A stretch of 64,000 nt of DNA from Pseudomonadota bacterium (GTDB lineage Bacteria > Pseudomonadota > Gammaproteobacteria > Burkholderiales > REEB80). Both the position numbers and the translations under genes were made by a program. Under the pieces are notes generated by a model. The model was given only the letters and a program-made list of their open reading frames with translations. It did no database searches and was not told the origin of the DNA. Positions 60,988 to 62,929 of the stretch are shown here, one piece after another. The stretch lies in the NCBI GenBank assembly GCA_018971485.1, contig JAGXAQ010000001.1:195371-259370 (forward strand), given 5' to 3'. Each line of letters starts with the position of its first letter. Position 1 is the first letter of the stretch.

Positions 60988-61383
60988 TTATCCTGTAATG
61001 GCTTGCTGCATTGTTTTTATTTCTTGTGTCATAAAAGTCAGTGTTGCTTCGTACTTTAAAGCATTGCCTGTAAATTCTGCTCGAACCTGATTCATATTTA
61101 CGGTATTTCCATCTAACCTGGTTGAAGTTGCTGGAATAACAAATGTACCTGGGTATCTGTTTATTTCTGCCTGATCGGAAAATTGATTTTCAGAATTTTT
61201 TTTAAGTGATAAAGCTCCAGTGACATGATTTAATGCATTATGAAAAGCAGTTCTAAAGTTGACATCTTTTGCCTGAAAATAGGGGGTATCAGCATTAGCA
61301 ATATCAGATGCCAATATTTCCTGACGAAAAGAACGGACATTTAATGCTGTATTATAAAATTGCATGACAGGATCTGTTAGCAT
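60988..61383 (-). CDS. flgB: Proximal rod protein FlgB
   Basis: YNTALNVRSFRQEILASDIANADTPYFQAKDVNFRTAF; GNTVNMNQVRAEFTGNALKYEATLTFM. Confidence 0.96.
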   Translation of the reverse strand: MLTDPVMQFYNTALNVRSFRQEILASDIANADTPYFQAKDVNFRTAFHNALNHVTGALSLKKNSENQFSDQAEINRYPGTFVIPATSTRLDGNTVNMNQVRAEFTGNALKYEATLTFMTQEIKTMQQAITG

Positions 61384-61396
61384 GGTTTTTTCTACT

Positions 61397-61419
61397 TTAT
61401 TTTACCTGGTGTAAAATAA
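61397..61419. promoter_or_regulatory. 9-bp perfect inverted repeat in the flgB leader, abutting the sigma-54 -12 element
   Basis: TTATTTTAC-CTGGT-GTAAAATAA. Confidence 0.7.
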
Positions 61420-61434
61420 GCAGAAATCGTACCA
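61418..61434 (-). promoter_or_regulatory. Sigma-54 (RpoN) promoter for the flgB operon
   Basis: Minus strand TGGTACGATTTCTGCTT: GG-N10-GC spacing; close to TGGCACG-N4-TTGC. Confidence 0.7.
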
Positions 61435-61488
61435 GATCTTATTTTGTCTTATCTAGATGAATATAATGTATTTTATTATTTCTTTTTG

Positions 61489-61525
61489 TTTTTCATTGCC
61501 GGCAAAAATTGCCGGCAATGAAAAA
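61489..61525. terminator. Long perfect hairpin between flgB and lgt (bidirectional terminator-like)
   Basis: TTTTTCATTGCCGGCAA-AAA-TTGCCGGCAATGAAAAA: 17-bp perfect stem including A/T ends, 3-nt loop. Confidence 0.75.
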
Positions 61526-61578
61526 ATTTGCCGTATTAATCAAAATTAATTTTCATTTAATAAAACACGAAAATTAAA

Positions 61579-61678
61579 TGTGGATAACCTGTTTCTAAGG
61601 ATGAAACACTTTGTGAATAACCCCCACAAATTCTGTGGCTTGTTTTTTTGTCCCTTTTTCATGCACTATTTATGCACA
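61579..61678. promoter_or_regulatory. Cluster of three DnaA-box consensus sequences (TTATNCACA)
   Basis: TTATCCACA (minus strand, 61579-61587), TTATTCACA (minus strand, 61612-61620), TTATGCACA (plus strand, 61670-61678) in an AT-rich gap. Confidence 0.72.
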
Positions 61679-61802
61679 AGATAAAGACCCTGTTTATAAC
61701 GCCCTAACTTCATAATAATAAAGCCATAGCCTATTTAATCCAGAAAATAAGACATCTTTATTAGATATTATTATTCTTATATTTAAATACTTATAAATAT
61801 AA

Positions 61803-61824
61803 AAAGCCCCATGATTGGGGCTTT
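61803..61824 (-). terminator. Intrinsic terminator of lgt
   Basis: AAAGCCCC-atgatt-GGGGCTTT with T-tract on the minus strand (plus strand AAAAA to the left). Confidence 0.85.
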
Positions 61825-61849
61825 AGTTAATAATTAGTCATACTAGATT

Positions 61850-62662
61850 TCAAATATTGTTTTTTTTCTGTTGCGATTTATGCCTGGATTTTTTATTTAT
61901 TACTATAAACATAATAATACCTATAATAATCATAGGTAAACTTAACCATTGCCCCATGGTAAGACCTAATGCTAAATAACCTAAAAAGGGATCAGGAGCA
62001 CGGGTAAATTCAACTAGAAATCGTGCTGTTCCATATCCAATTAAAAAAAGTGCAGAAACTTTTCCGGCTTCTCTGGGCTTTTTAGAATAAATCCACAGAA
62101 TAAAGAAAAGAACAATCCCTTCGAGAGCAAATTCATAAAGCTGGGAAGGCTGTCTTGGTAAGTTATCTGTACTAGGAAAAACCATGGCCCAGGGAAGGTG
62201 AGATACCCGGCCAGGTAGTTCCCCATTTATAAAATTTCCAAGTCTTCCTGCACCTAGGCCAAGAGGAACAAGTGGAGCTATAAAATCCATAATGTCCAGC
62301 CATTTTCGATGGTGTTTTTTTGCATAAATGGCCATGGCTAATAAAACACCTAAAAGCCCTCCATGAAACGACATACCTCCCTGCCAGACATGGAGGATCT
62401 GCCAAGGATGTGCAAAATAAAAATCCGGCTGGTAAAATAAGACATACCCTAAACGGCCACCTAATACAACACCCAGAACACCATAAAATAGCAAATCATC
62501 CATATCTGAATATTGCCAGCCTGTTTCCGGACGAGTACGTATACGATATCGTCCTAGATATAAAGCCATCAAAAAACCAGCAAGGTACATAAGACCATAC
62601 CAATGTACTTCTAGAGGACCAATTGAAAATGCTACGGGATTAATATGCGGATGTACTAACAT
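61850..62662 (-). CDS. lgt: Prolipoprotein diacylglyceryl transferase
   Basis: [61 protein letters not shown]. Confidence 0.98.
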
Positions 62663-62808
62663 TAAAATAAATCCTAAAGATAAAAGAAATTCAGGATAAA
62701 AAAATTATTCATAAACTTTTGAATAGTGATTTGATAATTAAATAAAGATTCCATTTTTATTTCATGATTTTAATCTTGCTACATGCTAACGCTTTTTTAT
62801 AGAAAAGC

Positions 62809-62828
62809 AACCTGTTGAGAAACAGGTT
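62809..62828. other. 8-bp stem-loop upstream of ilvD
   Basis: AACCTGTT-GAGA-AACAGGTT, perfect stem with a GNRA-type tetraloop, in the divergent lgt-ilvD intergenic region. Confidence 0.55.
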
Positions 62829-62929
62829 TTGATATTACACATCAAGAAAAATCCAAATCTGGTAAAATCATTTGAATGCTATAAATGAAAAAAAGTTCAC
62901 TGTGGCAAGTAATTTAGGAGATGGAAAGC

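Follow-up and report, generated by a model that had tools for sequence, protein, structure and literature searches.

The window analysed here is a 64-kb stretch (C22:195371-259370) of a 1.93-Mb genome (G000) in 35 contigs. Towards its right end, a flgB-like gene and lgt flank an A+T-rich intergenic region that carries three DnaA boxes. The features of this locus, in window coordinates, are:

60988..61383, minus strand: flgB-like gene, start of a flagellar rod operon (rod-protein Pfam match slightly below cut-off)
61384..61849: flgB-lgt intergenic region, the proposed oriC (466 bp, 72% A+T)
61420..61434, minus strand: sigma-54-like flgB promoter, TGGTACGATTTCTGC, the single match to the pattern in the window
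61489..61525: perfect inverted repeat with a 16-bp stem, on the flgB side of the boxes
61579..61587, minus strand: DnaA box 1, TTATCCACA, perfect match to TTATNCACA
61612..61620, minus strand: DnaA box 2, TTATTCACA, perfect match to TTATNCACA, 33 bp from box 1
61670..61678, plus strand: DnaA box 3, TTATGCACA, perfect match to TTATNCACA, in inverted orientation 58 bp away from box 2
61732..61804: putative DNA unwinding element with 88% A+T; no other 72-bp stretch of the contig is less stable
61803..61824, minus strand: intrinsic terminator of lgt, bounding the proposed oriC region
61850..62662, minus strand: lgt, prolipoprotein diacylglyceryl transferase (Pfam-confirmed)
62663..62920: lgt-ilvD gap, within the skew-switch interval; contains the stretch ranking second in the contig for low stability (62675)

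All three TTATNCACA sites of the 64-kb window fall inside one 100-bp span of the flgB-lgt gap. It is their clustering that is abnormal and not their number, since the window-wide count is at chance level (3 observed versus a mean of 2.69 expected). When the 466 bp were dinucleotide-shuffled 20,000 times, no such triple arose (mean 0.029), and the next tightest triple of the 420-kb contig is 11.5 kb wide, compared to 91 bp here. In the whole genome, 64 matches to TTATNCACA were counted versus 33 with a reversed control pattern. A sequence-only reading of this stretch had given the three perfect boxes and their 33-bp same-orientation pair with exact coordinates and strands, and had judged such proximity improbable by chance, as borne out by the shuffles.

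The strongly AT-rich stretch described in that reading is real. Segment 61732-61804 ranked first among 420,239 windows of the contig for low duplex stability, as judged by nearest-neighbour energies, and begins 54 bp from box 3. The hairpins it had placed on both sides correspond to the lgt terminator and to the 16-bp-stem repeat. The latter (TTTTTCATTGCCGGCA-AAAAT-TGCCGGCAATGAAAAA) is no standard terminator, read either way, and has no counterpart visible in the same-genus genome REEB109 (see below); a partial copy is present at C22:98214-98239.

No match to the IHF consensus was obtained in a search for origin elements. Inspection by eye for a DnaA-trio, here and in REEB109, revealed A+T trinucleotide runs, none of them convincingly placed 16 bp or less from a conserved box. 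The gap contains one GATC in 466 bp and SeqA/Dam-type control as in E. coli is therefore not indicated. A structured RNA was sought in the gap with no Rfam match near the curated cut-off, and a DNA-level search of the gap against 40 relatives from the order returned short matches alone.

The dnaA gene is located at about C22:192943-194358 and is followed by dnaN and gyrB. Both dnaA and dnaN lie just left of the window, in agreement with the distance of about 61 kb from dnaN given in the sequence-only reading, and dnaA is 64 kb from the proposed oriC. In the DnaA protein of this genome each of the three Pfam DnaA domains is present, the DNA-binding domain among them. Neither DnaA boxes nor a skew minimum, the marks of a canonical oriC, were found in the dnaA-dnaN gap, which measures 36 bp; the rpmH-dnaA gap holds one perfect box. 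Two parS-like sites are still near dnaA/dnaN (C22:188219 and C22:195520), which places the partition sites some 62-69 kb from the proposed origin.

The genome being a draft, skew was followed on single contigs, C22 and C32, instead of round a closed circle. GC skew on C22 is negative between position 1 and about 257 kb, then positive between 260 and 420 kb; at dnaA (193 kb) it is negative on either side, with no sign change. Cumulative minima were found at window positions 62611 (GC), 61904 (purine) and about 64150 (keto). Third-position skew was computed per gene strand, since every flagellar operon lies on the minus strand. Across the switch it changed from about -0.15 to +0.37 in plus-strand genes and from about -0.33 to +0.21 in minus-strand genes. 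Because each gene strand flips separately at third positions, gene orientation is not the cause of the skew flip. Maximum-likelihood breakpoints were placed at 61810 (61704-62906) for intergenic bases and at 62674 (62516-62909) for third positions and intergenic bases together. The switch lies at the proposed oriC or at most about 1.3 kb from it, and the box cluster is thus at the origin within the resolution of the method. A skew minimum and a stronger box cluster elsewhere had been named beforehand in the sequence-only reading as grounds against an oriC; the minimum falls at flgB-lgt, and no stronger cluster is found near dnaA.

In the segment between dnaA and the proposed origin, third-position skew is weaker than outside, both here (C22:193-257 kb) and in REEB109 (G001:C157:37-104 kb). 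In each genome it is mostly the half closest to the proposed origin that is affected; in G000 minus-strand genes, this half shows -0.185 versus -0.34. A relocation would be expected to weaken skew uniformly across the entire segment, and flagellar codon usage therefore explains the weaker skew as well as a relic of the move does. Two further groups of boxes were observed in this genome. Three perfect TTATNCACA sites occur in 205 bp after miaA (C32:78588-78793; L005:2089-2294), where the surrounding skew is uniformly positive, which rules out this cluster as an origin and leaves it as a candidate DnaA titration or regulatory locus. Two perfect TTATCCACA copies, 97 bp apart, lie around the start of a cydD-like transporter gene (C15:49535-49640; L006:1536-1641).

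The same-genus comparison relies on one genome, the MAG Pseudomonadota bacterium REEB109 (G001). Its lgt is 87% identical and is on the same contig as dnaA, 67 kb apart; the skew minimum and flip are at lgt and none is seen at dnaA. Its dnaA-dnaN gap is 36 bp long and box-free, as in G000. Reading from lgt, REEB109 carries an A+T-rich element and then an inverted box, followed after 56 bp by a second box and after a further 33 bp by a third, with one more box in addition; the corresponding spacings here are 58 and 33 bp. The counterpart of box 1 is perfect and lies in a conserved 13-mer, CAGGTTATNCACA, whereas those of box 2 (TTAAGCACA) and box 3 (CTATACACA) are one-mismatch forms. The A+T block 61756-61779 is also conserved, AATAATAATA..AATAAAG aligning with REEB109. 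This layout was kept despite the insertion of a 633-aa TPR-repeat-like gene between the boxes and flgB (L041:11238-13139), which argues against flgB regulation as its sole role.

The sequence-only reading had left three possibilities for the cluster, of which the origin is upheld by the skew minimum found here; the other two, a datA/DARS-like locus and DnaA-controlled transcription of flagellar genes, leave the skew flip unexplained. A datA- or DARS-like site would titrate or reactivate DnaA and so regulate initiation from an origin located somewhere else. Boxes clustered off the dnaA locus, yet within 64 kb of it, could be read in this way. However, such clusters lie away from the origin and would not be expected at the only GC-skew sign change of the contig, where this one is found; a separate origin would also be required, and the dnaA locus has a single box and shows no change of skew; and the boxes lie next to the least stable DNA of the contig. 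We therefore regard a titration or reactivation locus as extremely unlikely. Control of the flagellar operon, with the boxes acting upstream of flgB, draws on their position and on the sigma-54-like promoter at 61434-61420, sigma-54 promoters using upstream activator sites. This promoter is about 145 bp from the nearest box, and the site can be explained without invoking flagellar control. REEB109 moreover preserves the box spacing and A+T block with a 633-aa gene in front of flgB. As the explanation of the cluster, flagellar control has very little probability, and an effect of DnaA on flagellar transcription may exist as a side effect.

Alternatively, the origin could be close by but in the lgt-ilvD gap (62663-62920) instead of at the boxes. 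This gap is inside the third-position breakpoint interval 62516-62909 and, in low stability, is surpassed in the contig by the A+T element next to the boxes alone. Nevertheless, it contains no perfect DnaA box, and the corresponding REEB109 gap has none even at up to one mismatch. In the related genome G005 a cluster of five boxes and the skew minimum are about 5 kb apart, and an offset of 1 kb is therefore within the error of the method. An origin in the lgt-ilvD gap is thus improbable.

Taken together, these results make it very probable that the flgB-lgt box cluster is the chromosomal oriC, 64 kb from dnaA. The features of a DnaA-dependent origin on which this reading rests are found together: a box cluster, an adjacent unstable A+T-rich element, a skew minimum with a switch in both genomes, and conservation in one related species. 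The number of boxes is modest (three), and the third-position breakpoint is 0.8-1.2 kb to the right, near the unstable stretch at 62675. Since the dnaA-dnaN gap is 36 bp long without a box in this genus, the ancestral origin is gone. We infer that the origin at dnaA-dnaN was replaced by the flgB-lgt one in the ancestor of the genus, dnaA, dnaN and the parS-like sites being left about 64 kb away. By analogy with established DnaA biology, DnaA-ATP would bind the three high-affinity boxes (a tandem pair spaced by 33 bp and an inverted one 58 bp off), then spread over weaker sites and form an oligomer. This oligomer would melt the adjacent 88% A+T element 61732-61804, where the helicase would be loaded and from which two forks would leave.

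To place this arrangement in the order, the dnaA-dnaN gap was measured in 45 Burkholderiales genomes. It is 130-484 bp in 39 of them (176-484 bp in most of the order, roughly 200 bp being typical), and 36 of these 39 longer gaps contain at least one DnaA box with up to one mismatch. In the remaining six (G000, G001, G005, G027, G032 and G037) the gap is collapsed to 16-106 bp and box-free. The skew switch is away from dnaA in all six collapsed-gap genomes. Conversely, a skew minimum within about 5 kb of dnaA was found in nine of ten longer-gap genomes tested (G006, G014, G015, G018, G021, G023, G025, G028 and G036); in the tenth, G022, skew is too weak for the minimum to be placed. Three of these genomes were chosen on gap length before skew inspection, as a small blind test. 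G036, whose 130-bp gap contains a box with one mismatch, proved canonical, while G037 (C7, L276-L280; gap of 16 bp) has its minimum 17 kb from dnaA and G032 (C4, L281-L287; gap of 88 bp) shows none within 70 kb of dnaA.

In G005, a single complete 3.63-Mb chromosome, the skew minimum is at 1.700 Mb, some 413 kb from dnaA. About 5 kb from this minimum, five perfect DnaA boxes occur in 190 bp (G005:C1:1695210-1695391; L229:11210-11391), a second displaced origin. G027 carries five perfect boxes 15 kb from dnaA (G027:C9:74790-75269; L237:14790-15269), with a box-free dnaA-dnaN gap of 41 bp and a skew minimum about 5 kb from the boxes. This site is likely a displaced origin, in a genome where skew is weak. 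The new origin sites have no common neighbour genes: as named by eye from sequence, a YlqF-type GTPase and a thioredoxin-like gene flank the G005 site, and lipopolysaccharide glycosyltransferase genes the G027 site.

In DnaA trees, the displaced genomes occupy three places, namely G000/G001, a group with G032, G005 and G027, and G037; the canonical G021 falls inside the second group. These are single-gene trees with uneven support, in which deeper forks are unsettled, so that at least three separate origin moves in Burkholderiales are likely, not proven. Overall, it seems probable that in this order the origin was lost from dnaA-dnaN and re-established at least three separate times, the new sites being unrelated and 15 to more than 400 kb distant, and that a gap collapsed to a box-free spacer of no more than about 100 bp reliably indicates the move.

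An oriC away from dnaA is already known as a kind. That of E. coli (mnmG-mioC) is apart from dnaA and has been described as a rearrangement of the ancestral order (PMC8287927, PMC4285127). It resembles the flgB-lgt site in its box consensus, its adjoining A+T-rich unwinding element and a distance of tens of kb from dnaA; the site described here differs by its flgB-lgt neighbours, fewer recognisable boxes, one GATC in 466 bp and an independent lineage. A displaced oriC away from the dnaN region was also listed for Synechococcus lividus PCC 6715 (DoriC 10, PMC6323995). There too the boxes cluster at a distance from both dnaA and dnaN, in a group where origins are usually next to dnaN; the phylum and the box sequence are different. 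Distances from dnaA to DoriC origins have been used in an inversion survey (PMC9584773). With the canonical Burkholderiales dnaA-dnaN oriC, the flgB-lgt site shares the box consensus, A+T richness and location at the GC-skew minimum, whereas the dnaA-dnaN locus itself is lost here and the origin lies 64 kb off. We found no report of repeated oriC relocation within Burkholderiales, in a search mainly of literature outside subscription.

These findings bear on how origins are assigned and studied in the order. Genome annotation and copy-number methods often equate dnaA with the origin, an assumption which is wrong by 64 kb here and by 413 kb in one complete relative. The gap-length test is simple and applicable to every Burkholderiales genome, and the broader pattern merits a proper survey. 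Repeated moves between related families would provide natural before-and-after pairs for the relocation of an essential single-copy origin, opening to study the minimal needs of a new oriC and the reasons why dnaA, dnaN and parS are able to remain in place.
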